NCBI RefSeq assembly: GCF_022601675.1
Contig: NZ_JAKVIL010000004.1
Span: forward strand, 1 to 64,000
From: Ancylobacter gelatini
Lineage (GTDB): Bacteria > Pseudomonadota > Alphaproteobacteria > Rhizobiales > Xanthobacteraceae
Direction of reading: 5' to 3'
DNA: 64,000 bases
Below are positions 36,455-56,807 of this stretch, piece by piece. Made by a program: the position numbers and the translations under genes. Under the pieces are notes generated by a model that did not search any database, had not been told where the DNA came from, and saw nothing but the letters and a program-made list of their open reading frames with translations. How positions within the stretch are numbered: the stretch's first letter is position 1; each line of letters opens with the position of its first letter.

Positions 36455-36479
36455 CTGCGACGTTGTCGCGTCATTTAAT
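36455..36479 (+). promoter_or_regulatory. Late dyad A (lysis/packaging block)
   Basis: CTGCGACGTTGTCGCGTCA at 36455-36473, with perfect arms GCGAC and GTCGC around three bases. The same 19-mer pattern (CTGCGAC-RTY-GTCGCGTCA) occurs at 44579 and 56759. TTTAAT at 36474-36479 would be a good -10 (5 of 6). It precedes the lysis and packaging genes. Confidence 0.75.
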
Positions 36480-36502
36480 ACCCCCGACGCACGCCAAGGT
36501 CA

Positions 36503-36524
36503 GCTCCGAACCCTGCTTCGGAGC
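36503..36524 (+). promoter_or_regulatory. Hairpin covering the ribosome site of the holin candidate
   Basis: A perfect 8-bp stem (36503-36510 with 36517-36524, 6-base loop). GGAG, the only Shine-Dalgarno for the ATG at 36531, lies at 36520-36523 inside the 3' arm. Folding would hide it and delay translation of the lysis cassette. Confidence 0.65.
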
Positions 36525-36530
36525 CCCATC

Positions 36531-36893
36531 ATGCTGTTCCTGCTCGCTTGGGCGTGTTTTGGCGCGATCGCCGCGACGCTCATCATCTTCGTGCTCAATG
36601 TCTGGGATGGCGTCCCGGTCGCGAAAGCTGCCAATGGCGCCGCCTTGTGCGGATCTGCCGTCTTCGGGCTGGCAGTGCTCGCCGGTGGCGGTTCGTACGC
36701 GCTTTATCTTGCGGGCAACGGCCTCACCCAGATGGGCAGGTTCCACTATTTGACCGCAACGGCCCTCGGCCTCGCAGTCACCGGCGTGTTTCTGTCCTTC
36801 GGTCGCACCCGATGGCGTGCGGCGCTGTGCGGAGCGTCGACCGTCGCCGGTTTCCTGTCCGTCCTCGCGATCGTCCACGGCGCGGGGGTCTGA
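36531..36893 (+). CDS. Four-span membrane protein, holin candidate
   Basis: A 120-residue very hydrophobic protein with four predicted membrane segments (LLAWACFGAIAATLIIFVLNV, GSAVFGLAVLAGGGSYALYL, YLTATALGLAVTGVFLSF, LCGASTVAGFLSVLAIVHG). It is the first gene after late dyad A and lies three bases before the endolysin gene. Position and topology suggest a holin; no specific holin family is recognised. Confidence 0.65.
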   Translation: MLFLLAWACFGAIAATLIIFVLNVWDGVPVAKAANGAALCGSAVFGLAVLAGGGSYALYLAGNGLTQMGRFHYLTATALGLAVTGVFLSFGRTRWRAALCGASTVAGFLSVLAIVHGAGV

Positions 36894-36896
36894 GCT

Positions 36897-38012
36897 ATGC
36901 GGAACGCTCTCTCCATCATCCGCGAGATCGCGCCCGGCGCCGCGCCGGCCATTGTCTCCGCGCTTGCCCGTCAGTCTGCGATCGAGGACGCGAAGATCAC
37001 CACACCGTTGCGCCTCGCACACTTCCTCGCCCAGGTCGCCGTCGAGACGGCGGGCTTCACCCGCCTGCGCGAGAGTGGTCGCTACTCCGCCAAGCGCATC
37101 GTCGAGGTGTTCGGCGTCGGCAAGCACTCGGCCGCCGTCACCCCGGCCGAGGCGAAGAAGCTCGCTGGAAATGAATACGCTCTCTTCGAGCGGGTCTATG
37201 GCCTCGGCAACCCGAAAAAGGCCCGCGAGCTTGGCAACATCAAGGTCGGCGACGGCTATCGGTTTCGTGGTGGCGGCGCGATGCACACGACCGGCCGCAA
37301 CGGCTATGACCTTGTCGGCCTCGCTGATGATCCCGACCTGATCGAGACCGCAGACCATTGCCTGCGTCCGGCGTTGGACTACTGGGAGCGCAACGGCTGC
37401 AATGGCCTTGCCGACCAGAACGATATCCGTGCGGTCACCCGGCGCATCAATGGCGGATACAACGGCTATGCCGAGCGCGTCGCGTGGTTCAATCGCCTCT
37501 GGCCGCTGCTCCGTTCCGATCGCGAGCCGGAGCAGAGCTGGAAGGTAGCGCATCCCTCGGAGATGACCAAGCTGCTCCAGGGCCAGCTTGTCCAGCTCGG
37601 TTACGACCTGAAGGTCGACGGCCGCTATGGCCCCGCGACCACGGCGGCCGTGGTGGCCTTCCAGCGGGCGAACGGCCTCAAACCGGACGGCATCGCGGGC
37701 GACCTGACCAAATCCGCCCTGGCATCCCGCCTGTCGATCACGGCGGCCGCGCCGGGCTCCGAGGCCGTGGCGGAGCCGCCCCGCGCCGCGCCCCCGGTGG
37801 CGACGGGCTTCAGCCTCGCCGCGATCGGCGAGGGTGGTCAGAGGCTGATCGACCAAGCCGGCGTGCTCCAGGCTTATGCCGGCCTGTCGGACTGGGTCGG
37901 TTATGGCGCCCTGATGCTCACCGGCGCGGGCGTCGGCATCATCGCGATCGGGGTGGTCCGCTCCTACGTCATCCCGGCGATCTGGCCGGCGACTGCGCCG
38001 GTGCCGGCATGA
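36897..38012 (+). CDS. GH19-type endolysin with peptidoglycan-binding domain and C-terminal anchor
   Basis: A 371-residue lytic enzyme. Residues 1-210 are a GH19 chitinase-like endolysin (catalytic Glu near E50 in LAQVAVETAGFTRL, plus GDGYRFRGGGAMHTTGR and RRINGGYNGYAERV). Residues 222-283 are a PG_binding_1 domain (LLQGQLVQLGYDLKVDGRYGP, FQRANGLKPDG). A Pro/Ala linker leads to a hydrophobic segment near 332-360 (YGALMLTGAGVGIIAIGVV). No signal peptide is seen. The C-terminal membrane segment is unusual for this class. Confidence 0.93.
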   Translation: MRNALSIIREIAPGAAPAIVSALARQSAIEDAKITTPLRLAHFLAQVAVETAGFTRLRESGRYSAKRIVEVFGVGKHSAAVTPAEAKKLAGNEYALFERVYGLGNPKKARELGNIKVGDGYRFRGGGAMHTTGRNGYDLVGLADDPDLIETADHCLRPALDYWERNGCNGLADQNDIRAVTRRINGGYNGYAERVAWFNRLWPLLRSDREPEQSWKVAHPSEMTKLLQGQLVQLGYDLKVDGRYGPATTAAVVAFQRANGLKPDGIAGDLTKSALASRLSITAAAPGSEAVAEPPRAAPPVATGFSLAAIGEGGQRLIDQAGVLQAYAGLSDWVGYGALMLTGAGVGIIAIGVVRSYVIPAIWPATAPVPA

Positions 38013-38263
38013 ACATCGTCGCTCTGCTTGCCACCACACGCGTCGGCCAAATCATCCTGTGGGTGGGTGGCGCCGCTGTCGCTCTCGGCGCGCTGGCCTT
38101 GCGCCTGCTCGCTGCCGGCCGCGCCCAGGAGCGGGCGAAACAGGACACCGCCGCCCTTAACAATCTTCGCAGCCGTCAGGAAACCGACGATGAAATTGCT
38201 CGCCTTGATGATCGTGCTCGCCGCGAGCGTCTGTCTCGCTGGGTGCGCGACGACAAGTTGTGA
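38009..38263 (+). CDS. Inner-membrane spanin subunit (Rz-like)
   Basis: An 84-residue protein: one N-terminal membrane segment (IILWVGGAAVALGALALRLL) followed by a charged helical periplasmic part (QERAKQDTAALNNLRSRQETDDEIARLDDRARRERL). This is the i-spanin plan. It starts in an ATGA overlap with the endolysin, and an Rz1-like lipoprotein gene begins inside its 3' end in another frame. Confidence 0.82.
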   Translation: MNIVALLATTRVGQIILWVGGAAVALGALALRLLAAGRAQERAKQDTAALNNLRSRQETDDEIARLDDRARRERLSRWVRDDKL

Positions 38264-38381
38264 CGGCTGGCGCCCGATCCGGCCCAGCTCGGCCGACATC
38301 GAGGTGATGTCGCCGTCGCTCGCCGGCCAAATCCTCGCCCATGACGAGCATGGCGAGAAAACATGCGGCTGGAAGCCGTAA
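38190..38381 (+). CDS. Outer-membrane lipoprotein spanin subunit (Rz1-like)
   Basis: A 63-residue protein with a lipoprotein signal (MKLLALMIVLAASVCLAGC, lipobox LAGC). Its start lies 74 bases inside the Rz-like gene in a different frame and its end extends past it. The Rz/Rz1 pair fuses inner and outer membranes in the last step of lysis. Two further cysteines are present, and it is less Pro-rich than lambda Rz1. Confidence 0.82.
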   Translation: MKLLALMIVLAASVCLAGCATTSCDGWRPIRPSSADIEVMSPSLAGQILAHDEHGEKTCGWKP

Positions 38382-38392
38382 GGAGACCAGCC

Positions 38393-38614
38393 ATGAGTGA
38401 CGAACTACGCGGGATCCACGAGCGCCTTGCGCGGATGGAAACCACTCAGGAGCACCAGGGCAAGCTGCTGGAGAAGATCGACAGCAAGCTCGACCGCCAG
38501 GATGCGCGCCTCGACGAGATCGAGAAACGCAGCGCCGGCTTTGCCGTCATTGCGGGCGGCGTCGTCTCCGTCGGCGTCAGTCTCATCACCGCAAAGCTGA
38601 TGGGAAAGGCCTGA
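38393..38614 (+). CDS. XhlA-like coiled-coil membrane protein
   Basis: A 73-residue protein. An N-terminal coiled coil (IHERLARMETTQEHQGKLLEKIDSKLDRQDARLDEIEKR) leads to a C-terminal membrane segment (GFAVIAGGVVSVGVSLITAKLM). This is the layout of XhlA-type proteins, which act with holins in some phages. AAGGAG lies upstream. Part of the lysis cassette by position. Confidence 0.7.
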   Translation: MSDELRGIHERLARMETTQEHQGKLLEKIDSKLDRQDARLDEIEKRSAGFAVIAGGVVSVGVSLITAKLMGKA

Positions 38615-38621
38615 CCTTGCC

Positions 38622-39122
38622 ATGGCGCATGACGATGGCAAGAAGCGCGATGTGCGCCGGAAATATGTGACCGAGCGCCAGTCGCTCGCCACCATCGCCC
38701 TGCTGGTCGACGTGCCGGAGTCCACGCTACGCCGATGGAAGCGCGACGCGCGAACCGAGGGCGACGATTGGGACGCGGCCCGTGCCGCCTCGACGCTCTC
38801 CGGCGACGGCCGCGACGCGCTGATCGCCGGCCTGCTGGACGATTATGTCATCCAGCACCAGGCGGCGATTGATGACCTCAAGGCCGCGACCGACCTCGGG
38901 CCGGGTGAAAAGGCGAAAGTCCTCGCCAGCCTCGCCGACAGCTTCAGCAAGACGCTTGCCGCCTCGGGCCGACTGTCTCCTCAGATCTCGCAGCTCGGCG
39001 TGGCCATGAAGGTACTTGAATTGCTCGGCGATTACATCGCGCAGCACCACCGCGATCACGTCGCCGCTTTCATCGAGATCATCGAGCCCTTTGGTGAGAC
39101 CCTGCAGGATTCGCTGACGTGA
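38622..39122 (+). CDS. Terminase small subunit-like protein (DUF1804)
   Basis: A 166-residue protein. An N-terminal helix-turn-helix (RRKYVTERQSLATIALLVDVPESTLRRWKRDAR) is followed by a helical oligomerisation part (LADSFSKTLAASGRLSPQISQLGVAMKVLELL). The family is found just before the large terminase in Mu-like phages and is thought to recognise phage DNA for packaging. It overlaps the large subunit gene by four bases. Confidence 0.85.
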   Translation: MAHDDGKKRDVRRKYVTERQSLATIALLVDVPESTLRRWKRDARTEGDDWDAARAASTLSGDGRDALIAGLLDDYVIQHQAAIDDLKAATDLGPGEKAKVLASLADSFSKTLAASGRLSPQISQLGVAMKVLELLGDYIAQHHRDHVAAFIEIIEPFGETLQDSLT

Positions 39123-40780
39123 AGCGCACGCCAAGGATCAAGGCCGATCTGTCGGCGAAGCAGTTTCGCGACGAGCTGGCGAAATTCGCCGCGAACTACC
39201 GCACCCGCGTCGAGCTGGAGTGTGAGGCTTTCGCGGTCGACGAGTCCGCGCGGAAGGATCGCCGGGCGAAGGCGCTTGATCCGATCACCGGCTTTCGGTT
39301 CTTCGCGGAGACCTATTTCCCGCACTACCTCACCAAAGCACCGTCGCTGCTCCACCTGCACCTGTTCGAGGATCTGCCGCGCATCGCGGCGGCGGGCGGC
39401 GGTGCGCGCGAGGTCAAGATCGCCCCGCGCGGCGCGGCGAAATCCACCCTGATCTCGCTGATCTACCCGGTCTGGCGGGCGCTGATCGGACGCTCGCGCT
39501 ACGCCATCATCGTGATGGACAGCTATGCGCAAGCGGCTCTCCAGGTTGAGGCGATCAAAGGCGAGCTGGAGCAAAACCCTCGCCTCGCGATGGATTTCCC
39601 TGAAATCGTCGGTCAGGGCCGGGTCTGGCGCGAGGGCGAGATCGTCCTCAAGAACAACGTCATGATCCAGGGCGTCGGCGGCGGCATGAAGCTGCGCGGC
39701 CGTCGCCATGGTCCATACCGGCCCGACCTGGTCGTCCTCGACGACATCGAGAACGACGAGAACGTGCGCTCACCAGAGCAGCGCGACAAGCTGGAATCGT
39801 GGGTGCTCAAGGCTGTGCTGAAGCTCGGCCCGGCGGATGGCTCGCTCGACCTGCTGCATATCGGCACCGTGGTGCACTGGGACGCGGTGATCCTGCGCAA
39901 CAAGAATCGGCCGGGCTGGACGACGCACCACTTCAAGGCGCTGATGAGCATGCCCGGCGACATGAAATTGTGGGATCATTTCGAGGAGCTTTTCCGCAAT
40001 GAGGGCGAAGCCCCGGCGCGTGAGTTCTACGAGCAGAACCGCGACTGGATGGATGCTGGCGCCTTGCTGAACTGGCCGGCGATGCAGACGCTGTTCCAGC
40101 TCATGAAAGAGCGGATCGAGAGCTCTAGCGCCTTCGCCAGCGAGCAGCAGGGCGAGCCGACGCCTGAGAACGCCCCATTTCAGAAGCTGTATTTCTTCGT
40201 CAACGCCAGCCGTCAGTGGTTGCATTTCGGGGCGGTCGATCCGTCACTGGGGAAGCAGGGCAAGAGCCGCGACCCGTCTGCCATCCTGGTCGGCGCGCTC
40301 GATCGCACCGGCTCCTCGCCGGTGCTCTGCGTGGTCGAGGCCTCGATCCGCAAGCGCCTGCCAGACACGATCATAGCGGACACCATCGCGCTCCAGCGCG
40401 AGTACAACTGCCAGCTATGGGCGGTTGAGAGCGTGCAGTTTCAGGAGTTTCTGCGCACCACGCTGATGGTCGAGGCGCTACGCCAGGGCGTCACGTTGCC
40501 GGCGTTGCCGGTCGACAACATCGCCGACAAGACCCTGCGCATCGAGCGGCTCCAGCCCTACACCTCGGTCGGGTCGATCCTCTTCCACGCTTCGCACGCG
40601 ACCCTGCTCCAGCAGCTCCAGCAGTGGCCGTCCGCCGATCACGATGACGGCCCGGATTGCCTGGAGATGCTCTGGAACCTCGCCATCCGCTATGGCGGCG
40701 GGGCGGCCGGGGCGATCGGCTCGATGCAGGGCGCGTCCGCCGGCAACCGCAACACCATGGGAGGCTACCGGCTATCATGA
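39119..40780 (+). CDS. Phage terminase large subunit
   Basis: A 553-residue packaging motor. The ATPase half has a Walker A-like APRGAAKST near 102-110 and a Walker B DLVVLDDIENDE near 203-214. The C-terminal half is an RNase-H-like nuclease whose first acidic residue is in FGAVDPSLG, with later AVESVQFQEF. It cuts host-flanked phage DNA by headful filling in Mu-type phages. The start is GTG 39119 (GTGA overlap with the small subunit). Confidence 0.94.
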   Translation: MKRTPRIKADLSAKQFRDELAKFAANYRTRVELECEAFAVDESARKDRRAKALDPITGFRFFAETYFPHYLTKAPSLLHLHLFEDLPRIAAAGGGAREVKIAPRGAAKSTLISLIYPVWRALIGRSRYAIIVMDSYAQAALQVEAIKGELEQNPRLAMDFPEIVGQGRVWREGEIVLKNNVMIQGVGGGMKLRGRRHGPYRPDLVVLDDIENDENVRSPEQRDKLESWVLKAVLKLGPADGSLDLLHIGTVVHWDAVILRNKNRPGWTTHHFKALMSMPGDMKLWDHFEELFRNEGEAPAREFYEQNRDWMDAGALLNWPAMQTLFQLMKERIESSSAFASEQQGEPTPENAPFQKLYFFVNASRQWLHFGAVDPSLGKQGKSRDPSAILVGALDRTGSSPVLCVVEASIRKRLPDTIIADTIALQREYNCQLWAVESVQFQEFLRTTLMVEALRQGVTLPALPVDNIADKTLRIERLQPYTSVGSILFHASHATLLQQLQQWPSADHDDGPDCLEMLWNLAIRYGGGAAGAIGSMQGASAGNRNTMGGYRLS

Positions 40781-42393
40781 GCAAGCGATCCCGCCGCGCG
40801 GCCGCCAAAGCCGTCACCTTCGCCGCAACCAGCTCGCCGCCGGCGCTGGCGCCCGATATGCGCCGCATGCTGGCGACACCGGTCAACGACATCACCATCC
40901 CGAACTACACGAATGTCCTGCGTTCCGAGGACGAGACGCTGCTGACGAAAGGTGGCGCCCGTGGCGTCCGCCTCTATGACGAGGTGCGGCGCGACGGCCA
41001 TGCACTGGCGGTCCTCACAAAGCGCACGCTCAAGGTGGTTTCGCGGCCGTGGATTGTGGAGCCCGCCTCCAAGCGCGCGATCGACCGCAAGGCGGCCGAG
41101 GTGGTGGAGCGGCAGATCAATCGCGTGGCCTTCGATCGCCTGTGCCGCGAGCTTCTCGGCGCGGTGCTGTACGGCTATTCGGTCGCCGAGATCGAATGGG
41201 CCGTGGGTGGCGGCGAGGTCTATCCCGCGCGCATCGTCAACCACCAGCGCGCCCGCTTCGTGTTCGATCTCGATTGGCGTCCGCGACTTCTCACACGCGA
41301 GAACAGCTTCGAGGGCATGGAGCTGCCGGAGCGAAAGTTCATCGTGCACCGTCACGATGCCGAGGGCTCGGACCCGTACGGCCGCGGCCTCGGGCGGGTG
41401 CTGTTCTGGCATGTGCTTTTCAAGCGCGAGGGCATCGGCTTCTGGTCGCATTTCCTCGAAAAATATGCCTCGCCGACGCCCGTCGCGAAGTACCCCATGG
41501 GCACGCCCCCGACCGAGCAGGACCGGCTGCTGAGCCATCTGCTCGACCTGGTGCAAAAGGGTGCCCTGGTCGTTCCTCTCGGCACCGACGTCGAATTCCT
41601 GGAGGCCGCGCGATCTGGCGCGGCGACCTATGAGGAGTGGTGCCGGTTCTGGGACGAGCAGACGAGCGTCGCCGTGCTCGGGGAGACGCTCTCGACCAAT
41701 ATTCAGGGCGCCGGCTCCCGCGCGGCCAGCGAGACTCATGACGATGTTTCCAGCGGCATCGCCGATGCCGATGCGGATCTGCTTTCGGCGACGCTCAATG
41801 AGACGCTCTGTCGCTGGATCACAGAATTTAATGTGCCTGGCGCGCAGTCGCCGACCATCTGGCGGCCTCGGCCCAAGAACGAAACGGCCGAGGAAGATCA
41901 CAAGACCAAGCGCGCCGCGCGTCAGAAAAGCGAGATGGACAATCTGTTCGCGCTGGCGGCGAAGGGCTATCGGCCCGCCGAGGGGCTGGAGAAATCGCTG
42001 TCCGATATCACCGGGACCTCGGTGATCCTGGACGAGGAGCTGAAGCAGCAGTTCGGCCCGCCGCCGGCGCTCGATCCGGCGCAGGCAGCGCTGTCGTCGA
42101 CCGCGCTCAATCCGGCCTTCGCCGCGCATGACGATCACGAGATCGGCGATATCCTCGACCAGCTCGGGCTGGAGGCCGAGACCGTGATCCATCTGTGGGT
42201 CGATCGCGTGCGCCAGGTGCTAGCAGATGCCGATCGGCGCGGCCTCGCGCTCTCCGACGTCAAGGACCTGCTGCTGCCGCTCGCCGCCGAGCTGGACGCG
42301 TCGCCGCTCGGCGAGATTATCACTCTGCCGCTGATCCTTGCCGAGCTGACGGGCCGTGCCGACGTGATTGACGAGATCGGCAGCGAAGCATGA
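40777..42393 (+). CDS. Portal protein (Mu gp29-like, DUF935)
   Basis: A 538-residue portal of the DUF935 family, which forms the dodecameric DNA gate of the capsid. Family segments are visible: LYDEVRRDGHALAVLTKRTLKVV, LLGAVLYGYSVAEIEW, RGLGRVLFWHVLFKREGIGFW and HFLEKYASPTPVAKYP. It starts in an ATGA overlap with the terminase and is followed by the F-like gene. Confidence 0.94.
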   Translation: MSKRSRRAAAKAVTFAATSSPPALAPDMRRMLATPVNDITIPNYTNVLRSEDETLLTKGGARGVRLYDEVRRDGHALAVLTKRTLKVVSRPWIVEPASKRAIDRKAAEVVERQINRVAFDRLCRELLGAVLYGYSVAEIEWAVGGGEVYPARIVNHQRARFVFDLDWRPRLLTRENSFEGMELPERKFIVHRHDAEGSDPYGRGLGRVLFWHVLFKREGIGFWSHFLEKYASPTPVAKYPMGTPPTEQDRLLSHLLDLVQKGALVVPLGTDVEFLEAARSGAATYEEWCRFWDEQTSVAVLGETLSTNIQGAGSRAASETHDDVSSGIADADADLLSATLNETLCRWITEFNVPGAQSPTIWRPRPKNETAEEDHKTKRAARQKSEMDNLFALAAKGYRPAEGLEKSLSDITGTSVILDEELKQQFGPPPALDPAQAALSSTALNPAFAAHDDHEIGDILDQLGLEAETVIHLWVDRVRQVLADADRRGLALSDVKDLLLPLAAELDASPLGEIITLPLILAELTGRADVIDEIGSEA

Positions 42394-43730
42394 GCGTCGC
42401 CGCGCGCATCCTCGCTTCGATCCGGCCGCGCGCTCCGGTGTCGTTCGCGCGCCGCCGGATGGTTCGGCCGGTGCGCTACGCCGAGGACGGGTTTCGGGTC
42501 GCCTTTCAGGATGCGATCGACTTCCACCGGCAGAAGGTCCGTCTGCCCTCGCGCAGCTATCGCGATCTTGCCGGCAATGCGCATGACCGCGCCTTCGTCG
42601 TCGCCGGCGCGACCCGTGACGCGCTGCTTGCCGACCTGCACGGTGCGGTCGACAAGGCACTCACGGATGGGCTGACCCTCGCGCAATTCACCGAGCGCTT
42701 CGAGGAGATCGTCCAGCGCAACGGCTGGACCGGCTGGACCGGCGAGGACACCGCCGCCGGCCGCGCGTGGCGTGCGCGGGTGATCTATCAGACCAATCTG
42801 ACCACCGCGCACGCCGCCGGCCGCTACAAGCAGATGACGCACCCTGATGTCCTCAAGGTGCGGCCGTTCTGGATGTACCGCCATGGCGAGCGGCGCAAAC
42901 CGGCTAATCCTCGCCTTCAGCACCTCGCCTGGGACGGCAAGATCTGGCGCGCCAACGATCCGGTATGGCGCCGCATCTATCCGCCGAATGGCTGGTTCTG
43001 TTCCTGCGGTGTGCGCCCGCTCTCCCCGCGCGATCTCAAGCGCATGGGCCGGGAAGGGCCGGACCCGTCGCCGGAGCTAACGATGCGCCGGGTGCGTGAC
43101 CCTGCCACGGGCGAGTTGGTCGATGTGCCGGAAGGTATCGGCTTCGGCTGGGACCATGCGCCTGGCCGGGACTGGGCCGAGGGACTGGTGCCGCAGGAAA
43201 TGCAAAAGCCGCTCGACATTCTGCCGCCCGAGCTGCCGCGTTCCGAGCGGCCGCCGGTGCCGCCGGCACCGCCCGGACGCCCCTTTTCGGCTCCGAGCCT
43301 ACCCGGCGGTGACGATCCCGCCGAGTATGCGCGGGCATTCATGACCGAGTTCGGAGGTGATGTTGGGAAGGGGGTCGCGTGGCGCGATCCCGCCGGCCAC
43401 GTATTGGCACTGTCGGATGAATTGTTTCGGGCGGCATCGGGTGCATGGAAGGCGACGAAGCGAGGCCGCGATACCGAGGTACTCAAGCTCGCCGAGACGC
43501 TCAAGGACCCTGATGAAATATGGGTGAACTGGGCGCACGACGAAAATGGCCGGCCGTTTCTGCTGCGCTCTTATCTCCGCTGGGCTCCGGGTGGACAGGG
43601 ATTCGCGTTGTTCGAGTGGGCGGCGCGCGCCTGGCGCGGAGTCACCGCGTTCCCACCGGACCGGCCCGGCTATCTCGACAAGGAGAGGCGAGGCGCATTG
43701 CTTTGGCGCCGACCGGAAGAAAAGCCGTGA
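42390..43730 (+). CDS. Mu F-like head morphogenesis protein with PBECR2-type nuclease domain
   Basis: A 446-residue two-domain protein. Residues about 20-235 match the Mu F/SPP1 gp7 head protein: RVIYQTNLTTAHAAGRYKQM, RHGERRKPANPRLQHLAWDGKIW, YPPNGWFCSCGVRPLSPRDL. A Pro-rich linker follows. Residues 310-440 resemble the PBECR2 nuclease family (GVAWRDPAGHVLALSDELF, WKATKRGRD, DPDEIWVNW, LLRSYLRW), which belongs to the barnase/EndoU/colicin E5/RelE-like group. Minor head proteins of this family can enter the cell with DNA, so a nuclease payload is plausible but unproven. Confidence 0.88.
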   Translation: MSVAARILASIRPRAPVSFARRRMVRPVRYAEDGFRVAFQDAIDFHRQKVRLPSRSYRDLAGNAHDRAFVVAGATRDALLADLHGAVDKALTDGLTLAQFTERFEEIVQRNGWTGWTGEDTAAGRAWRARVIYQTNLTTAHAAGRYKQMTHPDVLKVRPFWMYRHGERRKPANPRLQHLAWDGKIWRANDPVWRRIYPPNGWFCSCGVRPLSPRDLKRMGREGPDPSPELTMRRVRDPATGELVDVPEGIGFGWDHAPGRDWAEGLVPQEMQKPLDILPPELPRSERPPVPPAPPGRPFSAPSLPGGDDPAEYARAFMTEFGGDVGKGVAWRDPAGHVLALSDELFRAASGAWKATKRGRDTEVLKLAETLKDPDEIWVNWAHDENGRPFLLRSYLRWAPGGQGFALFEWAARAWRGVTAFPPDRPGYLDKERRGALLWRRPEEKP

Positions 43731-43851
43731 GCGATATGGCGACCACCCCACCAATCGCACCGGTCGCAGCCTACTAGCGCGGGTGGCGCGTCGGCGGGCG
43801 ATCGACGGATCACGACCGCCGGCAAAATAGCACAGGGGAGTGAGCTGCACC

Positions 43852-45785: not shown

Positions 45786-45818
45786 CCGCGCTTCATCCTC
45801 TCACTTGGAGTCGCCGCC

Positions 45819-47700: not shown

Positions 47701-47710
47701 GCGTCAGAAC

Positions 47711-48657: not shown

Positions 48658-48896
48658 GCCAGCAGGCATTCATCTGGCGCGGGCCGCATCAGGCCGCGTC
48701 GCTCCAGGACGCCCAGGGCGTCGTGCTCTGGGAGGGCCAGCTCGTGCCGGGCCGCAAGGTGACCGGCCTGCCGGTCGACCATCCGCATGTCGCGCAATGG
48801 GTCGGCGCGCGCCTGCTGGAGCCGGTCGCCATCGATGCGCCGGCCGAGCCGGCCGCCGAACCCGCCATCCGCCGCCGCGCCACCAAGGAGGGCTGA
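48654..48896 (+). CDS. DUF2635 (Mu gp38-like) small tail protein
   Basis: An 80-residue protein that precedes the sheath gene by three bases, as in Mu-like phages. The core (ASLQDAQGVVLWEGQLVPGRKVTGLPVDHPHVAQWV) fits DUF2635; the tail is Ala/Glu/Arg-rich. Function unknown. Confidence 0.7.
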   Translation: MSQQAFIWRGPHQAASLQDAQGVVLWEGQLVPGRKVTGLPVDHPHVAQWVGARLLEPVAIDAPAEPAAEPAIRRRATKEG

Positions 48897-48899
48897 TCC

Positions 48900-50174
48900 A
48901 TGGCCGAGAATTTTCACCACGGTCCCGAGATCATCGAGCACCTTGAGGGCAACAGCGTCGTCCGCGAGGTCAAGTCGGCGGTCACCTTCATCGTCGGCAC
49001 GGCGCCGATTCAGGAGGTCCATGACACCGCTGAGAAGCGAGCGGCCGTCACCAACGAGTTGGTCGTCATCCGCAGGCGCGAGCAGATCGAGGAGTTGCTC
49101 GGGCCGCGCATGGCCGGCTACTCGCTGCCGGAGGCCCTCGACGTCCACTTCAACAAGATCCAGTCCGGCAAGGGCGGCGGCACGATCGTCGCGGTCAACA
49201 TCTTCAATCCCGACCTTGCCGCGCACCAGGACGAGGGCGATCCCGACCCCAGCAAGGTGACGGCCGCCGATGCGATCGGCACCTACACTGCAGGGAAACC
49301 GAGCGGCTTCAAGCTGGCGCGCACGATGTTCAACCGGCTCGGCTTCTTCCCCAAGATCCTGGAAGCGCCGCGTCTGTCCGGCCTCGTCGGCGTGCGCGCC
49401 GAGATGGAGGTGCAGGCCAACGACCTGTCGGCGGTCTATCTCGCCGACCTGCCGGCCGGGCTGACCGTTCAGCAGGCGGTCGAGACGCGCGGCGCGACGG
49501 GAGCCTACAACACCAGCTCGTCGCGCGGCATCCTGCTCTATCCGCACCTCAAGGCCTATGATCCCGTCATCGACGACGTGGCGCTCCAGCCCTACAGCCA
49601 GCATTTCGCCGGCATGATGGTCGCGAGCGATCTGAGCTACGGCTACCACTATTCGCCGTCCAACCGGGCGATGTCCGACGTGCTCGGCCTGGAGCGAGAT
49701 TTGGAGTTCGTGCCCGGTCGCTATGACAGCGACCAGAACGCGCTGAACGAGGCCGGCATCGTCACCGCGATGAACTATTTCGGCTCGGGCTACCGGACGT
49801 GGGGCAACCGTAGCGCCGGTTTCCCGACCATGACCACGGCGCACCAGTTTATCCATGTGCGCCGCACGCTCGATATGATCCATGAGGCGGCGCTGTACTA
49901 CCTCATGGACAAGATCGACCGGCCGGCTACCAAGAACTTCCTCAACGACATCGAAGAGGACGTCGACGCTTTCCTGCGCAAGAAGGAAGGCGAAGGCGCG
50001 CTCTATGGCGGCACGTTCCGCTTCGATCGGACCAAGACCACCTCGGCCGACGCCACGGACGGGCGGTTCTACTACCGGCTGGACTGCATGCCAGTCGGCG
50101 TCACCGAGCGGATGACCGTCGACAGCTACCTCGACGCCTCGCTCGCCGCCTCCGCCCTCGGCCTCGCCGCCTGA
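48900..50174 (+). CDS. Contractile tail sheath protein (P2 FI-like)
   Basis: A 424-residue sheath protein. The start FHHGPEIIEHLEGNSVVREVKSAVTFIVGTAP and the end region NYFGSGYRTWGNRS, then HVRRTLDMIHEAALYYL are typical of P2/Mu-type sheaths. It contracts to push the tube through the host envelope. Shows that the phage is a myovirus. Confidence 0.95.
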   Translation: MAENFHHGPEIIEHLEGNSVVREVKSAVTFIVGTAPIQEVHDTAEKRAAVTNELVVIRRREQIEELLGPRMAGYSLPEALDVHFNKIQSGKGGGTIVAVNIFNPDLAAHQDEGDPDPSKVTAADAIGTYTAGKPSGFKLARTMFNRLGFFPKILEAPRLSGLVGVRAEMEVQANDLSAVYLADLPAGLTVQQAVETRGATGAYNTSSSRGILLYPHLKAYDPVIDDVALQPYSQHFAGMMVASDLSYGYHYSPSNRAMSDVLGLERDLEFVPGRYDSDQNALNEAGIVTAMNYFGSGYRTWGNRSAGFPTMTTAHQFIHVRRTLDMIHEAALYYLMDKIDRPATKNFLNDIEEDVDAFLRKKEGEGALYGGTFRFDRTKTTSADATDGRFYYRLDCMPVGVTERMTVDSYLDASLAASALGLAA

Positions 50175-50220
50175 AACCTCTGACGAGCGGCGAGCCTCAG
50201 GCCGCCGGATGGAGTGACCC

Positions 50221-50739
50221 ATGGACCCGATCAAGATCGGTCATGTCAGCAATGCCGACATGTACCTCGCCAACAACAAGCTTACCGGCCGCGTCAAGGA
50301 GTTCGATCCCGGCGACTTCTCGACCAAGGTCATCAGCCACGAGGCGCTCGGCATGATCGGCGTTATCGAGATCCCGGCGCGCGGCGTCGAGGCGATCGAG
50401 AGCTCGATCACTTTCGACTGGCTTGATCACGAGGTGGAGCGCCTGGTCATCAACCCGACCAAGGTCCATCGCTGGGCCATGCATTCCTATGTGGACGTGC
50501 ACGGGCCGGAAGGGGTGATCGCGGATGCGGGTCACCGTCTCATCACCACTGTCGGGCTCCAGTTCGTCGGTCGGTCGAGCTTCGGGCACACGCTGGGCGA
50601 GATGCTCAATCATGAGCTGGAGTGCCGGACCCAGTTCATTTCGCAGCGCATCAGCACGTCCGACGTGCCGATCCTCGAATATGACCCGTTCTCGGGAGTC
50701 TATCGCATCAACGGCGAAAACGTCTGGTCGGAGTACTGA
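50221..50739 (+). CDS. Major tail tube protein (P2 FII-like)
   Basis: A 172-residue tube protein following the sheath gene. Family features: [47 protein letters not shown] and [23 protein letters not shown] near the end. It forms the inner tube inside the sheath. Confidence 0.93.
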
Positions 50740-50744
50740 TCGAG

Positions 50745-51023
50745 ATGTCGGACATCCCGAACGACCAACCGCTTTCCGACGCCGCCGCCGGCTTCGCCAA
50801 GGAGCAGCTCAAATCCTTCATCGAGCGTATCGAGCGCCTGGAGGAGGAGAAGAAGAGCATCGTCGAGGACATCAAGGATGTCTTCAGCGAAGCGAAGGGC
50901 ACCGGCTTCGACACCACAGCGCTGCGCGAGATCCTGCGCATCCGCAAACAGGACGCCGACCAGCGCGCCGAGCAAGAGGCGATCCTCGATCTCTATCTCC
51001 AGGCGCTCGGCATGGTGGGCTGA
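50745..51023 (+). CDS. GapR-like DNA-binding protein (DUF2312)
   Basis: A 92-residue protein that matches the GapR/DUF2312 pattern: [55 protein letters not shown]. In Caulobacter GapR binds overtwisted AT-rich DNA and helps replication. Here it lies between tail tube and tail assembly genes, so it would be made late. Hosts of this group carry their own GapR; the phage copy could act on packaging or host DNA topology. Confidence 0.88.
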
Positions 51024-51027
51024 CGCC

Positions 51028-51219
51028 ATGCGCGCGGTCTCTACCGTCTACCTGTCCGAACCGGTCGCCCCGCGCGGCGGGTCCCACCATTCCGGCTACG
51101 TCACACGACACGACGAGCGCGGGATCTGGATCGAAGACCGCGAAGACGGTCGGGGCGGGCAGGTGTTCTTCCCGACCCATCTCCTCCTTCGCGTTGAGCA
51201 CAACACGGGCTGGCGCTGA
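51028..51219 (+). CDS. Hypothetical small protein in tail operon
   Basis: A 63-residue beta-rich-looking protein (STVYLSEPVAPRGGSHHSGYVTRHDERGIWIEDREDG). No family recognised. It sits between the GapR-like and tail assembly genes; neither is a usual position for a structural protein, so these two look like an insertion. Confidence 0.55.
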   Translation: MRAVSTVYLSEPVAPRGGSHHSGYVTRHDERGIWIEDREDGRGGQVFFPTHLLLRVEHNTGWR

Positions 51220-51242
51220 CCGGCCTCAACAGGAGTTCCCTC

Positions 51243-51521
51243 ATGGCCTTCCCGACCCGCAAGCACACGCTCACCCGCTCCAAGATCGAGGTCACCATCC
51301 CCGAGGACTGGCACGTCTCCGACACCCAGGCGGCGCAGCGTTACGGCAAGGGCGACGTGCCCAAGACGCAGATGGCGCTGATCCAGCGGGTCTGCCGGTT
51401 CAACGGCGAGACCTGGACCGCCGCCGACATCGCCGAGAAGATCACCGGCAAGGACTACAACGAGCTGATCGGCGAGCTTTACGGCGACGATGACGACGAG
51501 GACGAGGCGGGAAACGCCTGA
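51243..51521 (+). CDS. Tail assembly chaperone, short form (P2 gpE/Mu gp41-like)
   Basis: A 92-residue protein (SKIEVTIPEDWHVSDTQAAQRYGKG, TAADIAEKITGKDYNELIGELYGDDDDEDEAGNA). It stands before the tape measure gene, as tail assembly chaperones do. Its last codons carry a GGGAAAC slippery heptamer, and the -1 frame stays open for 59 further codons. Confidence 0.9.
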   Translation: MAFPTRKHTLTRSKIEVTIPEDWHVSDTQAAQRYGKGDVPKTQMALIQRVCRFNGETWTAADIAEKITGKDYNELIGELYGDDDDEDEAGNA

Positions 51522-51694
51522 TCCCGCACCAGCGGGACATTCACTTCCTGGTCGGCCGGGGCTGGCCCCCGTCCGACCTGATGGCGATGACGCCCGACGA
51601 ATTCGACCAGGTGCTGCGCACCGCCATCGACATCGTGAAAGACGAGGACAAGGCCCAGAAGGAGGCCGCGCGGGCCGCGAGGACGCGTAAATAG
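51243..51694 (+). CDS. Tail assembly chaperone, -1 frameshift long form (E+E')
   Basis: Join of 51243-51515 and 51515-51694, about 150 residues. After AAC at 51513-51515 the ribosome slips one base and reads RLIPHQRDIHFLVGRGW, then PDEFDQVLRTAIDIV and a basic end, stopping at TAG 51692-51694. The second part has no start codon of its own and clean coding character. The ribosome site of the tape measure gene overlaps its stop. Such paired products chaperone the tape measure during tail assembly. Confidence 0.87.
51509..51537 (+). promoter_or_regulatory. Programmed -1 frameshift signal
   Basis: Slippery heptamer G-GGA-AAC at 51509-51515, correctly phased with frame zero. A six-base spacer is followed by a perfect 6-bp hairpin TCCCGC-ACCA-GCGGGA at 51522-51537. 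The zero-frame stop TGA lies at 51519-51521. This is the textbook layout for -1 frameshifting. Confidence 0.88.
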
Positions 51695-51707
51695 GAGGGT
51701 CAAGGCC

Positions 51708-54158
51708 ATGCGCGTCTCCATGACCCTCGAAGCGCAGGACAAGGCCAGCCGGGCCATCCGCGCCGCGCAGAAAACCGTCGCTGGCTTCAATAAGGTCGCG
51801 ACCGCTGGCGCCAACACGACGGCAAGGGCGACTGCCAAGGCCGCAAACGCCTACAGCAAAACCGAGAAAGCCGCCCGCGCGGCGGGCAAGGCCGCTGCCG
51901 CAGGCGCTGCCCAGGGCGCGGCCGGACATAGCCGCGCGCAGCGTGCGCTTGCGATGGTGGCTCGTGCGCAGGACCGCGTCGCCGCCGGGGCTCGCCGTGT
52001 TGGCGATTTCAGTGCCGCCGCAGGCCGCGCGGCCGAGCGCGCTTATGATCGTGCGTCCGAAGCTCTGGCCCGATGGGCGCGGCGCCAGGGTGACCTGATC
52101 GTCAAGGGCGGCGGCATGATCGGCCAGGGTGCCGGCCAAGTATGGCAGGGCATGAAGGGGGCCGGCAAGGTCGCCGCCGGCGTCGCGACCGGGGCGGGTG
52201 TGCTGGGCATTGCTGGCGGCATGCTGATGAGCCAGCTCGTCGCGCCGGCGGGTGAATTCGAGCGGTTTGCGACGATCCTCACCACGTTGCAGGGGTCGGC
52301 CCAGGCGGCCCAGGCGGCACTGGCATGGATCTCCGACTTCGCCGCCAAGACACCCTATGACATGGCCGGCGTGACGGATGCCTTCGTGAAGCTGCGCGCC
52401 TATGGTCTCGATCCCATGAGCGGCCTGCTCAAGACGCTCGGCAACACCTCGGCAGCGATGGGCAAGCCGCTCATCCAGGCCGTAGAAGCGATCGCCGATG
52501 CGGTCACGGGCGAGTTCGAGCGCCTCAAGGAATTCGGCATCAAGGGCGCGGTCGATGGAGCCTATGCGGTGTTCGCGTTCACCGCCAAGGATGGCTCACA
52601 AAAGACCATCAAAGCCTTGAAGAACGACCGCAAAGCTATCGAGCAGGCCCTGGCGTTCATTTGGAACAATAAGTACGCCGGCGCGATGGACGCTCTCTCG
52701 GCGACGTGGGAGGGCATGGTCTCCAATCTCGCCGACCAGTGGTCGCGCATCCGGCTGATGATCATGAATGCCGGCCTTTTCGACTGGATGAAAGGCCGGC
52801 TCGGCGACATCCTCTCGACGATTGACCGCATGACGGCCGACGGATCGCTCCAAGCTTGGGCGAAGGATATCTCCACTACCTTGATCGCAACCCTGTCGAA
52901 AGGCTGGGAGGTGGCGAAAGGCTTGGGCGCCGCGCTCGGGACGCTGGCCAAGGGCGCCGAGCAGGTCGCCACCGCCATCGGTGGCTGGGAGAACTTCTCC
53001 TATCTGCTGATCGCCGCCGCCTTCGCCGGGCCGATCCTCAACATCGCCTCGGGCCTGTTCCTGATCGCACGCGGGGCGTGGGTCGCAGGCTTCGCGCTGA
53101 TGCGCGTGATGGCCGTACTGTCGCTGTCGTCGACGCTATGGGCATTCTCGGCCGCGTTGCGCGGCGTGGCATTGGCCATGTCGCTCGCATCACGGGGCGC
53201 TCTCTTCCTCGGCGCGAGTCTGATGGCGACGCCGATCGGCTGGATCATTGCCGGTCTCGCGGCGGTCGCGGCGGCGGCTTATCTGATCTATGCCAACTGG
53301 GACAGCATCGGCCCCTGGCTGGCTGAGAAGTGGGAACAGATCAGGCAGGTGTTTTCCGACGCCTGGAACTGGCTCGCGGCGCTGGACTGGCCAAGCCTGA
53401 TGCCGGATTGGGACTGGTCCGCGATCATCCCGGATATCAGCCTGCCCAGCTTCTCCTGGTCGAGCCTGCTGCCGGACTGGGACTGGTCGAGCATCATCCC
53501 CTCGCTGCCGGATTTCGGGTCGTGGTTCGGCGGCTCGAAGGATACCAGCGCCGTCACGAACGCGCAGGACATGGCGCAGCTCGCCCGGCAGGCGGAGGCG
53601 GCGAACAAGCTGATCGCCGGCATCGGCCCGGCGGCTCAGGCGGCGGTGCAGGCGGCATCTTCGGCCCTCTCGGCCGCGTCGTTCCATTCGCACGGCGTCG
53701 CGTTGATGGAAACGCTCGCGGCCGGCATCCGCGCTGGCGCCGGCGCGGCGGTCGGCGCGGTCCAGGGCGTCACGCAGCAGATGCGCGATTACCTGCCTCA
53801 TTCGCCGGCCAAGGTTGGGCCGCTGTCCGATCTCGACCGCGTGCGGTTTTCCGAGACGCTGGCCTCGGCCATCCGGCCCGGTCCAGCGGCTGCGGCGGCG
53901 CGCTCAGTTGCGGCCGGCATGCGTGGCGCGCTTTCGGATATCGCCCCGCGTTCGGCCGGCCTGCCGATCGGGACGGCCGGCGCCGGCGCGGGCGGCGGTG
54001 TCACCGTGAGCGTGCAGTACAGCCCGAGCGTCACGGTGCCAGCCGGCACCACCCAGCAGCAGGCAGCGAGTTTCGCGCAGCAGCTCCGGGATCATGCGGA
54101 CGAGCTGGCTCGCATGGTGGATGAGGCTGTGCGCCGTCAGAAACGACTGGAGTATTGA
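51708..54158 (+). CDS. Tail tape measure protein
   Basis: An 816-residue protein that sets tail length. An Ala-rich helical N-terminus (residues 1-130), a conserved TMP core (FAAKTPYDMAGVTDAFVKLRAYGLDP near 205-230; ALSATWEGMVSNLADQWSRIRLMIM), several hydrophobic segments (430-530) and an odd repeated block (SLMPDWDWSAIIPDISLPSFSW, then SLLPDWDWSSIIPSLPDF). GGAGGGT precedes the ATG. Length predicts a tail near 120 nm by the usual 1.5 angstrom per residue rule. Confidence 0.94.
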   Translation: MRVSMTLEAQDKASRAIRAAQKTVAGFNKVATAGANTTARATAKAANAYSKTEKAARAAGKAAAAGAAQGAAGHSRAQRALAMVARAQDRVAAGARRVGDFSAAAGRAAERAYDRASEALARWARRQGDLIVKGGGMIGQGAGQVWQGMKGAGKVAAGVATGAGVLGIAGGMLMSQLVAPAGEFERFATILTTLQGSAQAAQAALAWISDFAAKTPYDMAGVTDAFVKLRAYGLDPMSGLLKTLGNTSAAMGKPLIQAVEAIADAVTGEFERLKEFGIKGAVDGAYAVFAFTAKDGSQKTIKALKNDRKAIEQALAFIWNNKYAGAMDALSATWEGMVSNLADQWSRIRLMIMNAGLFDWMKGRLGDILSTIDRMTADGSLQAWAKDISTTLIATLSKGWEVAKGLGAALGTLAKGAEQVATAIGGWENFSYLLIAAAFAGPILNIASGLFLIARGAWVAGFALMRVMAVLSLSSTLWAFSAALRGVALAMSLASRGALFLGASLMATPIGWIIAGLAAVAAAAYLIYANWDSIGPWLAEKWEQIRQVFSDAWNWLAALDWPSLMPDWDWSAIIPDISLPSFSWSSLLPDWDWSSIIPSLPDFGSWFGGSKDTSAVTNAQDMAQLARQAEAANKLIAGIGPAAQAAVQAASSALSAASFHSHGVALMETLAAGIRAGAGAAVGAVQGVTQQMRDYLPHSPAKVGPLSDLDRVRFSETLASAIRPGPAAAAARSVAAGMRGALSDIAPRSAGLPIGTAGAGAGGGVTVSVQYSPSVTVPAGTTQQQAASFAQQLRDHADELARMVDEAVRRQKRLEY

Positions 54159-54161
54159 GAC

Positions 54162-54641
54162 ATGATGTTGTGGCTTGGCGATATCGCGCTGGGTGTCGGG
54201 ACCGGAAACGGCGCCCTGACCGGGCCGACCGCGCTCAGCGAGGAATACGCCAATTCCTATGCACGCCACGACGTGCTGCGGGGCAAGCCGGTGTTGCAGT
54301 ACATCGGGCAGGAGCTGGACACGCGCGAGTTCACCTTCTTTTTCGACGAGGGGTTCTGCAATCCGCTCACCCAGTGGGCACTGCTCCAGTCGGCCTATCT
54401 GGCGCGTACGAGCCTGCCGCTGATCGCCGCCGGCGGCTTCGACGGCCGCCATTTCGTGGTCGAAAAGCTCGGCCGCGAGGTGCTCAAGACGACGCGAGCC
54501 GGGCGCGTGGTGCGACTGGAATCCACCCTCTCGCTGATCGAAGCGCCTATCCCGAGCCTGCTGTCCTCCGCGCTGTCTAGCGCTGCGCGCACGGCCTCGG
54601 CGCTCGGCACAGTCGCGACAAAGGCGCTGGCGCTGAGGTGA
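54162..54641 (+). CDS. Tail protein U (P2 gpU-like)
   Basis: A 159-residue protein of the gpU family (tail completion). Visible pattern: RHDVLRGKPVLQYIGQELDTREFTFFFDEGFCNP and LPLIAAGGFDGRHFVVEKLGREV. It follows the tape measure gene, as in P2. Confidence 0.92.
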   Translation: MMLWLGDIALGVGTGNGALTGPTALSEEYANSYARHDVLRGKPVLQYIGQELDTREFTFFFDEGFCNPLTQWALLQSAYLARTSLPLIAAGGFDGRHFVVEKLGREVLKTTRAGRVVRLESTLSLIEAPIPSLLSSALSSAARTASALGTVATKALALR

Positions 54642-54653
54642 TGGGAGGTCCGC

Positions 54654-54893
54654 ATGGCCGAATATCTTGAGCACCGCACGAGCGATGGCGAGCGCTGGGA
54701 CCTGCTGGCGTTTCGCTACTATGCGGACGTGTCGCGCCAGGGCGAACTGATCGCGGCCAACCGCGACCTGTTCATGGACGATATGCGGATCCCGGCCATC
54801 CTGTCGGCCGGGCTGGTTCTGCGGATCCCGATCCGCGAGGCGACGGGCTCGGCCGAGGCGACCACCGGCCAGCTCCCGCCCTGGAAGAGGTGA
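54654..54893 (+). CDS. Tail protein X (P2 gpX-like, LysM-type)
   Basis: A 79-residue protein with a LysM-like fold (EHRTSDGERWDLLAFRYYADVSRQGELIAANRDL, then LSAGLVLRIPI). In P2 it acts with U in tail assembly and may touch peptidoglycan. Confidence 0.9.
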   Translation: MAEYLEHRTSDGERWDLLAFRYYADVSRQGELIAANRDLFMDDMRIPAILSAGLVLRIPIREATGSAEATTGQLPPWKR

Positions 54894-54896
54894 CCC

Positions 54897-56048
54897 ATGG
54901 AGCCGCGCGCGCCCCTGTTCCGCCTGACCTATGCCGGGCGCGATATCACGTCCGAGTTTTCCCAGTGGCCGGTCGAGATCACCTATACGGACAACCACCA
55001 CGGCAAGGCCGACGAGTGCACCGTAAAGGTCCACAATTCCAACGGCGCCTGGCTGGACATCTGGGAACCGCAGAACGGCGACGTGTTCTCGCTCGACTAC
55101 GGATACGAGGATGGCGCGCCGGTTCCGGCCGGCGAGTTCACGGTCGACGAGAGTGGTGCGGATGGCGATGCCGGCGGCGACACGGTCGATTTCAAAGGGC
55201 TCGCGGCACCCAAGACCAAGGAACTACGCACCGAGAAGCACAGGGCCTTCGAGCAGCAGTCGCTTTCCGAGATCGTCGCTAAGATCGCCAGCGAGCATGG
55301 TTTCCAGCTCGAAGGCGAGATCGAGGATCTAGACTATGAGCGGGTCGACCAGAACGGCGAGCGTGACCTCGCCTTTCTGACGCGGCTTGCCGAAGAGACC
55401 GGCCATTTCTTCACGGTGAAGGGCAAAAGGCTCGTGTTCACCTCGCGCAACGCGCTGCGCTCGACCGAGCCGGTAAAGACTTTCGATCGAGTGCGCGATT
55501 TTCGCCAGACGCTGCTGCGATACAGCCTGCGCGACGCCGATCACGTGGCGGCGGCCAGAGCCGAGGTTCGCTACCAGCATCCCCGACGCAAGAAGGTGAT
55601 TTCGGGATCGGCATCCTCGGCCGACGATCTGGGTCTCATGACCAATTCCGGCGACGTGGTGAAGCTGGACGTGCGCGTCGAGAACGAACAGCAGGCCGAG
55701 CGGCTCGCCAAATCCAAGCTCGACCAGAAAAACAGCCCGAAATACTCCGGCTCCCTCGATATGGTCGGGGACCCACCGATTGTCGCCGGCGTCGTGATCG
55801 GCCTGACCGGTTTTGGCAACAAATCCGGCAAGTACCTTGTCACAAGCGCGAAACACAGGAAGGCACGGAGCGGCTACACCACTTCGGTGGAGATCGAGGG
55901 GCTGACGGACAAGCAGGCGTCGGACGGCAAGGCGGCGAGCGCCTCGCCGAAAACCAAGAAGAGCGGCGCCTCGGCGGTCGGCTCGACGTCCAGCACCGGC
56001 ACAAGCCTCGGCGTGATGGGCGCCGATGGCGTGATCCGGCAGGAGTGA
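54897..56048 (+). CDS. Tail hub protein D (P2 gpD/late control D family)
   Basis: A 383-residue baseplate hub protein. Family segments: FSQWPVEITYTDNHHGKADECTV, LSEIVAKIASEHGFQLEGEI, YERVDQNGERDLAFLTRLAEETGHFFTVKGKRLVF. The hub joins tube and spike. The last 35 residues are Ser/Lys/Ala-rich and flexible, ending SLGVMGADGVIRQE. That end is almost the same as the end of the repressor-linked periplasmic protein at 23837-24250. Confidence 0.93.
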   Translation: MEPRAPLFRLTYAGRDITSEFSQWPVEITYTDNHHGKADECTVKVHNSNGAWLDIWEPQNGDVFSLDYGYEDGAPVPAGEFTVDESGADGDAGGDTVDFKGLAAPKTKELRTEKHRAFEQQSLSEIVAKIASEHGFQLEGEIEDLDYERVDQNGERDLAFLTRLAEETGHFFTVKGKRLVFTSRNALRSTEPVKTFDRVRDFRQTLLRYSLRDADHVAAARAEVRYQHPRRKKVISGSASSADDLGLMTNSGDVVKLDVRVENEQQAERLAKSKLDQKNSPKYSGSLDMVGDPPIVAGVVIGLTGFGNKSGKYLVTSAKHRKARSGYTTSVEIEGLTDKQASDGKAASASPKTKKSGASAVGSTSSTGTSLGVMGADGVIRQE

Positions 56049-56052
56049 CACC

Positions 56053-56487
56053 ATGTATCGAACGGGGATCGTTACCGAGGTTGACGGCAAGAAAGGGCTG
56101 GCGCGGGTCGAATTCCGTGACCGCGACCAGGTCGTGAGCTGGTGGCTCAACGTCAACCAGCCGCACGCTTCGGCCGGCAAGAGCCGCGTCTATTCGATGC
56201 CGGATTTGGGCGCGCAGGTGAACTGCCTGGTCGATGCGGGTGGACAGGAGGGCACCATCCTCGGTGCGTTTTATTCCGACGAGGATCGGCCACCGATCGA
56301 GGATGCGAAGCACATGCATGCGGCGCTGGAGGGCGGGCTCGTATTCGACTACGACCGGGCCACCGGCAAGCTCACGCTCAGCGCGCCGGGCGGGATCGAG
56401 CTGGTGGCGGGCGACTGCTTGATCAAGCTGAAGCCCGGCGAGGAGATCGAGGTCCGCTCGCCCAAGCTCACCGGCGGGCCTTCCTGA
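56053..56487 (+). CDS. Baseplate assembly protein V (P2 gpV-like spike)
   Basis: A 144-residue spike protein (YRTGIVTEVDGKKGLARVEFRDRDQVVSWWLNV, QVNCLVDAGGQEGTILGAFYS). An OB-fold is followed by a short beta-helix (FDYDRATGKLTLSAPGGIELVAGDCLIKL). Together with the PAAR protein it forms the membrane-piercing tip. Confidence 0.93.
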   Translation: MYRTGIVTEVDGKKGLARVEFRDRDQVVSWWLNVNQPHASAGKSRVYSMPDLGAQVNCLVDAGGQEGTILGAFYSDEDRPPIEDAKHMHAALEGGLVFDYDRATGKLTLSAPGGIELVAGDCLIKLKPGEEIEVRSPKLTGGPS

Positions 56488-56756
56488 TGCCGGGTATCGC
56501 GGTCAAGTCGCTCGACAGCGCCGGCGGCGCGCACCTCGCCGGCGGGCAGGATTGGATGACGGTCGAGGACCAGCTCGTCGTGGTGCTGGGCGATCCGGTC
56601 ACGCCACACGGCGACCCGCCGCACTCGCCGCTGCCGATCATGGTCGAGGGATCGGAGTGGTTCTTGATCGACGGGGTGCCGGTTTGTCGTGCCGGGCACC
56701 GCGCCTCCTGTGGCCACGCCTCATCGGGCCGTGACTGGTTCCTGATCGACGAGTAG
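56487..56756 (+). CDS. PAAR-type spike tip protein
   Basis: An 89-residue protein with PAAR-like repeats (VLGDPVTPHGDPPHSPLPIMVEGS, VCRAGHRASCGHASSG). His and Cys residues in the right places suggest a metal-bound tip. It starts in a TGATG overlap with gene V, which supports a joint spike. Confidence 0.85.
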   Translation: MPGIAVKSLDSAGGAHLAGGQDWMTVEDQLVVVLGDPVTPHGDPPHSPLPIMVEGSEWFLIDGVPVCRAGHRASCGHASSGRDWFLIDE

Positions 56757-56758
56757 CG

Positions 56759-56807
56759 CTGCGACGTTGTCGCGTCACCCGATCGCGCGCGCGCGGGCAT
56801 TGTCGCG
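56759..56807 (+). promoter_or_regulatory. Late dyad C (baseplate/fibre block)
   Basis: CTGCGACGTTGTCGCGTCA at 56759-56777, identical to dyad A and matching B in 17 of 19. The -10 position reads only CCCGAT, so it would depend strongly on an activator. A second GTCGCG stands at 56802-56807, 33 bases after the first, as in B. A (CG)6 run lies between (56784-56795). Confidence 0.7.

Follow-up and report, generated by a model that had tools for sequence, protein, structure and literature searches.

Three dyads ahead of three late gene blocks

Why would a Mu-like prophage of Ancylobacter gelatini carry the same short inverted repeat ahead of three of its late gene blocks, and what might read it? 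We address this in a 64,000-nucleotide stretch (contig NZ_JAKVIL010000004.1, positions 1 to 64,000), the whole of which we call the window. The prophage is Mu-like in gene content, with transposase A, a B protein, Gam and a Mu-type portal all present. It encodes a regulator (26017-26541), the transposase (26523-28631), the B-like transposition protein (28646-29437), the Gam-like protein (30674-31204) and, in the early phage region, a DNA methyltransferase-like gene (33717-34394; phrog_799, 6e-54). After Gam, the gene order is activator, endolysin, terminase, Mu-type portal, protease, major head protein, sheath, tape measure, baseplate and fibres. The late genes form three forward-strand blocks. 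Block 1 (36531-44391) holds a small ORF, the endolysin, a DNA-binding protein, the terminase, the portal, a minor head protein and a neck-like protein; block 2 (44631-56756) holds the head protease, a scaffold-like protein, the major head protein, a head-tail adaptor, the sheath, the tape measure, a gpD-like hub and a PAAR protein; and block 3 (56810-63727) holds the baseplate wedge genes, tail proteins and tail fibre genes. An ORF at 50221-50739 matches the ‘head closure’ connector family.

A sequence-only reading of this DNA had reported three identically patterned elements with perfect inverted arms, all in intergenic gaps ahead of these blocks, and our window search and gene map agree with it. 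The pattern CTGCGAC-RTY-GTCGCGTCA occurs exactly at 36455-36473, 44579-44597 and 56759-56777, always on the forward strand and always with perfect GCGAC/GTCGC arms. Site 1 (GCGAC-GTT-GTCGC, core 36457-36469) precedes the lysis/packaging block and, as the reading had also stated, begins 7 positions past the last base of the activator stop (36448), with the next ORF starting at 36531. Site 2 (GCGAC-ATC-GTCGC, core 44581-44593) precedes the protease/head/tail block, between the end of the neck-like gene (44391) and the start of the protease (44631). The baseplate wedge/fibre block is preceded by site 3 (GCGAC-GTT-GTCGC, core 56761-56773), which starts 3 positions past the end of the PAAR ORF (56756) and stops 33 short of the wedge ATG (56810). 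All three sites share the right-hand flank GTCA, and the element is therefore directional.

With just three copies in a window of 67% GC, chance or a host repeat could be suggested as the source of the dyads, but the window holds 5 matches to the 19-bp element at up to three mismatches against a mean of 0.21 over 100 shuffles (largest 2). The reading had named many copies elsewhere in the host as evidence against itself; across the 4,308,108 bases and 20 contigs of this genome, 11 places match at up to three mismatches, and the only exact copies are the three in the window. A possible fourth site beyond the right edge, also raised earlier, did not materialize, as the 402-kb contig beyond the window has no further match at up to three mismatches. 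Position 62776 was rejected as a fourth site: it has two mismatches, lies inside a fibre ORF and has an imperfect right arm. A fourth perfect GCGAC-NNN-GTCGC dyad at 30082-30094, within the early ORF 30003-30365, lacks the flanks of the three sites and is probably a coding coincidence. Separately, the left end of the window (21-1290) carries imperfect repeats around GCACAAATTACCGCCAGCC and GGCTATGTCAGCGCCCG, among the matches listed (40 of 56 positions).

Related phages share the positions of the dyads and differ in their letters

Relatives were gathered by terminase queries on named genomes and viral contigs, and activator relatives were taken from further genomes. The exact motif was rejected as a signature of the group. 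The earlier reading had proposed a count of sites per phage; the looser pattern TGCGACNNNGTCGCGTCA matches once in each of 20 viral contigs and never twice, and in a search of 397 genomes it matches once in each of 6 besides the prophage's own. What stood of the proposed group-wide late-operon element is its placement, as relatives carry dyads at the same late-block positions; the letters differ, and each phage has its own palindrome. The closest relative found, L151, whose activator is 80% identical, has GGGAC-ATT-GTCCC, and further relatives have CGGAC..GTCCG (L080), CCGAC..GTCGG (L157), CTGAA..TTCAG (L118) and GGGAA..TTCCC (L073).

In 22 of the 35 loci with both genes mapped, a count that takes in the window and one duplicate pair (L164 duplicates L081), the dyad that follows the activator recurs before the protease with a score of at least 19. 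The other 13 fall below that score within the phage, and the cross-phage control reaches it in 3.4% of 408 pairs. Under a strict rule for sites (perfect NNGAN arms, spacer 3 or 4), a dyad lies within -25 to +60 of the activator stop for 36 of 97 non-redundant activators, compared with 86 of 4532 control windows (1.9%). Two other sets of non-redundant activators gave 3/37 and 10/58 strict adjacent dyads, and adjacency is therefore not universal.

Downstream stretches were taken for 11 relatives. All 6 in which the wedge gene was mapped (L151, L080, L173, L423, L157, L179) carry a copy of the phage's own dyad directly before that gene; L081, L432, L427, L118 and L217 lack both a mapped wedge gene and an exact third site. 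This placement and the frequency of strict dyads beside activators again run counter to chance or a host repeat, an explanation that is already contradicted and whose probability we put at practically nil. The protease of L423 has no exact copy before it. Extra exact copies occur downstream of the sheath in L423 (one), L080 (two) and L157 (one), the last of which is perhaps a coding coincidence; those of L423 and L080, like an additional one in RR1-B, fall in the region from sheath to tape measure. Among cultured phages, RR1-B carries its own dyad after the activator, before the protease, before the gene in the tape-measure position (L541 19076-19090) and before the gene in the wedge position, while RcapMu has its dyad after the activator and before the protease, the two exact copies within the 30 kb covered. 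Both resemble the window phage in these positions and differ from it in half-site (CGGAC in RcapMu, CGGAA in RR1-B), and the RcapMu tail is non-contractile, unlike that of the window phage, according to the available text of PMC8601537. What the relatives have in common is position, architecture and promoter geometry, not the letters. On its reverse complement, L061 carries an exact 20-bp repeat, CCCCCAGCCGGGGGCATGAT, at 994-1013, behind a related activator, and 3.5 kb further on at 4453-4472, which is perhaps an element of a different, terminator-like kind.

The activator gene beside site 1

Mu C and Mor are classic activators, and no paper among those searched explained how proteins related to them select their sites. 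The 144-residue protein encoded at 36014-36448 on the forward strand is a C/Mor-like late activator: it matches the phrog_836 late transcriptional activator family (2e-16), and its profile aligned by hhalign with that of Mu C and Mor together gives 96.9% probability (E 2e-10 for the pair). A PDB search with the protein returns C and Mor chains at E 0.003-0.004, below two chains of other names; the entries 9l0x and 9vw8 are late transcription activator C, and 9l0y has the same sequence as 1rr7, the middle operon regulator, which points to further structural work on these activators. It does not pass the Pfam PF08765 cut-off, its sole match at E<=0.001 being HTH_23; against that cut-off of 24.9, the relative L118 passes (33.5), and L080 (23.7) and L102 (24.5) fall slightly below. 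The structure model has a pLDDT of 90.5 and places the predicted specificity residues 112, 114 and 115 within the predicted recognition helix 110-118. Foldseek with this model found no PDB match at E<=0.001, and Mor and C are absent among the 50 of 266 matches listed. Used alone as a query, the activator found no relative in the genomes and viral contigs and one weak match in a phage collection.

Searched with a profile built from 30 activators, the window yields a single clear member of the family, and the phage therefore appears to have one C/Mor-like activator. A second ORF, at 25003-25434, scores E 0.002 over its whole length and 0.065 for its best domain. From these profile scores, the window phage seems to have one such protein where Mu has two.

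Co-variation between half-site bases and the predicted recognition helix

In 46 activator/site pairs, the bases of the half-site co-vary with the predicted recognition helix. Arg-115 goes with C at base 5 in 23 pairs and without it in 4, compared with 0 and 19 for other residues (p=4e-9). Arg-114 goes with G at base 2 in 21 and without it in 2, compared with 3 and 20 (p=1e-7), and Tyr-114 goes with T at base 2 in 10 and without it in 0, compared with 6 and 30 (p=2e-6). The rule is thus Arg-115 for C at base 5 and other residues for A, and Arg-114 for G at base 2 and Tyr-114 for T. Exceptions among the strict sites are L163, L066, L069 and L107 at base 5, where L069 and L107 may be wrong picks of site, and L057 and L066 at base 2.

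Shared ancestry could produce associations of this kind. Among disjoint nearest pairs that differ at residue 115, base 5 changes along with it in 16 of 19 and oppositely in 0, and for residue 114 and base 2, 18 of 23 change together and 0 oppositely. The association persists at <50% identity (24 clusters, p 0.003 to 0.00015). When 117 protein columns were scanned, residue 114 came top for bases 1 and 2 (base 2 z 11.7), and for base 5 residue 112 is first (z 8.5) and residue 115 second (z 6.7); columns outside the helix reach z about 6, a level that relatedness alone can yield.

The rule was first spotted on part of the 97-activator data and was fixed before we turned to new activators. Of two new sets, the first came from relatives of the L102 and L118 terminases and is a poor test, with its three strict dyads and a base 5 that fits in the two with an aligned helix. 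All 10 strict sites of the second set fit the rule: nine have Arg-115 with C and one Lys with A, and four have Arg-114 with G and one Tyr with T. Taken alone, these ten give p=0.1 for base 5, a weak contrast because just one activator is without Arg-115, and p=0.005 for base 2, and four of the ten have almost the same helix. When imperfect dyads are allowed (19/58), Arg-115 goes with C in 10 and without it in 2, compared with 0 and 4, and Arg-114 goes with G in 6 and without it in 2, compared with 0 and 9; the exceptions are L499 and L503 (base 5) and L406 and L499 (base 2). Cultured RR1-B, with helix TQRWVRE and half-site CGGAA, follows the rule as well, and so do RcapMu and RcWaterboi with SQRHVRR and CGGAC, although RcapMu and L427 have the same residue in 99 of 122 aligned columns. 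Activators of L402, L420 and L493 lack Arg at the residue 111 position and are followed by GGTAAC..GTTACC. A third rule, by which base 3 changes from G to A without Arg-111, is possible; these dyads precede T-runs and may be terminators.

The dyads might instead be operators of another DNA-binding protein, such as a phage repressor, a Ner-like protein or a host regulator, given that dyads are bound by any HTH dimer and that the phage has further regulators at 26017-26541, 29434-30012 and 30003-30365. However, across phages the half-site bases follow the helix residues of the adjacent activator, the protein on which the co-variation was run, and the dyad stands at a Mor-like distance from a -10 signal, which together make another operator very unlikely.

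Promoter geometry and a proposed mechanism

Using no promoter model, we aligned 57 sites by their right arm: 32 that follow activators, 24 second copies chosen by rule and site 3 of the window, with four doubtful activators excluded. Counted from the right arm, the downstream signal is strongest for A at +30/+31 and for T at +35, forming a -10-like hexamer at a fixed distance, its last base 37 bp past the dyad centre. A coarse weight table for the -10 agrees, with peaks at offsets 29 and 30 (z 3.9, 3.2). The implied start would lie 43-44 bp past the dyad centre, such that across the 57 sites the dyad is centred near -43/-44 from the predicted start, ahead of the -10. In the available text of PMC4390567 and PMC4287176, the Mor dyad at Mu Pm is likewise centred at about -43.5, with two 5-bp inverted repeats in place of the -35; the Pm spacer is 6 bp, compared with 3 bp in the window and 3-5 in relatives. 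Candidate -10s in the window are CAAGGT (36495-36500, putative start about 36507), TAGCGT (44618-44623, putative start 44630/44631, at the protease ATG) and CATTGT (56798-56803, putative start 56810, the A of the wedge ATG), all on the forward strand. The -10s are weak.

The dyads lie closely behind stop codons and might instead be RNA hairpins, serving as intrinsic terminators or processing sites that end each preceding operon. The RcapMu dyad extends to a longer stem followed by TTTT, the GC-rich dyads of L402, L420 and L493 are followed by T-runs, and Mu has predicted terminators beside Plys and within Pm. Yet the 29-nt folding energies in the window (-6.7, -9.1 and -6.7) compare with a background mean of -6.9, no long T-run follows any of the three sites (TTTAAT at site 1), and a hairpin leaves the co-variation with the activator unexplained. 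On the folding energies and absent T-runs, we rejected intrinsic termination as the sole role in the window, and the hairpin reading overall is extremely unlikely; a double role as terminator and activator site is possible in some relatives.

Co-variation and promoter geometry agree with the earlier proposal that the dyads are the late-operon recognition element and the adjacent C-like protein its likely binder. In our view, the dyads are very probably binding sites of this activator at late promoters. Building on the directly computed sites, their placement in relatives, the helix/site co-variation and the -10 signal, we infer that a dimer of the phage's own activator binds each dyad. The bound dyad would stand in for the -35 of a weak promoter used by the host polymerase, with its -10 about 31-37 bp downstream of the centre, and production of the activator would switch on the three late blocks together from the predicted start points. 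The recognition helix would read the half-site GCGAC, with residue 114 mainly setting base 2 and residues 112 and 115 setting base 5, and each related phage would have its own helix and matching dyad.

Mu-type late promoters are already known, and in Mu, where C activates Plys, PI, PP and Pmom, a C/Mor-like activator gene likewise lies directly ahead of the lysis block. The accessible portion of PMC4461284 describes an activator site upstream of or overlapping the -35 and a weak -10, as in the window, but the perfect GCGAC-N3-GTCGC dyad sets the window phage apart from the Mu late promoters. The three breakpoints proposed earlier are supported. Set against Mu, sites 1 and 2 match the positions of Plys and PI, whereas PP lies inside gene N, upstream of P, and the third window site lies between the PAAR and wedge genes. 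Compared with the Mu regulon of lys, I, P and mom, the window phage thus matches lys and I, differs at the third and has no fourth that we found, and two of its operons, unlike those of Mu, are predicted to be leaderless.

Start codons at the predicted transcription start

In 8 of 8 phages (window, L151, L080, L173, L423, L157, L179, RR1-B), the right arm begins 41-42 bp before the wedge ATG, which coincides with the predicted transcription start in all eight, despite differing dyad letters and spacers; the -10 pattern is clear at 5 of these wedge promoters, and xAxxxT is absent at 3. A leaderless mRNA is therefore predicted, and the wedge operon, with the protease operon in the window phage, would be transcribed from at or next to its start codon. 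Shine-Dalgarno pairing in the window is 0.0 for the protease ATG, -2.6 (weak) for the wedge and -5.8 for the first gene of block 1. Among the 24 ORFs tested, 2 others have a score of 0.0 as well, so poor pairing is only suggestive of leaderless starts.

It is likely that this Mu-like clade diversifies its late regulon in a lock-and-key manner, with two to three helix residues specifying a private palindrome at two to four late operons and the baseplate start codon locked to the transcription start as a conserved leaderless operon. Private co-varying sites, a shifted third promoter and a locked start codon were not found in the literature searched; for site/activator co-variation in Mu-like phages, this covered open-access sources including the available text of PMC4461284, PMC4287176, PMC4390567, PMC9936078 and PMC8601537. 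If correct, this would be a natural protein-DNA recognition code readable from genomes, with dozens of natural activator/site pairs to make it testable and a use in annotating late promoters in Mu-like prophages. The private sites suggest a simple barrier against cross-activation among co-resident phages, and the fixed wedge start codon would offer a clean test of leaderless phage translation. At the protease, start-codon offsets in 7 phages are 42, 42, 58 (L080), 61, 65, 66 and 69.
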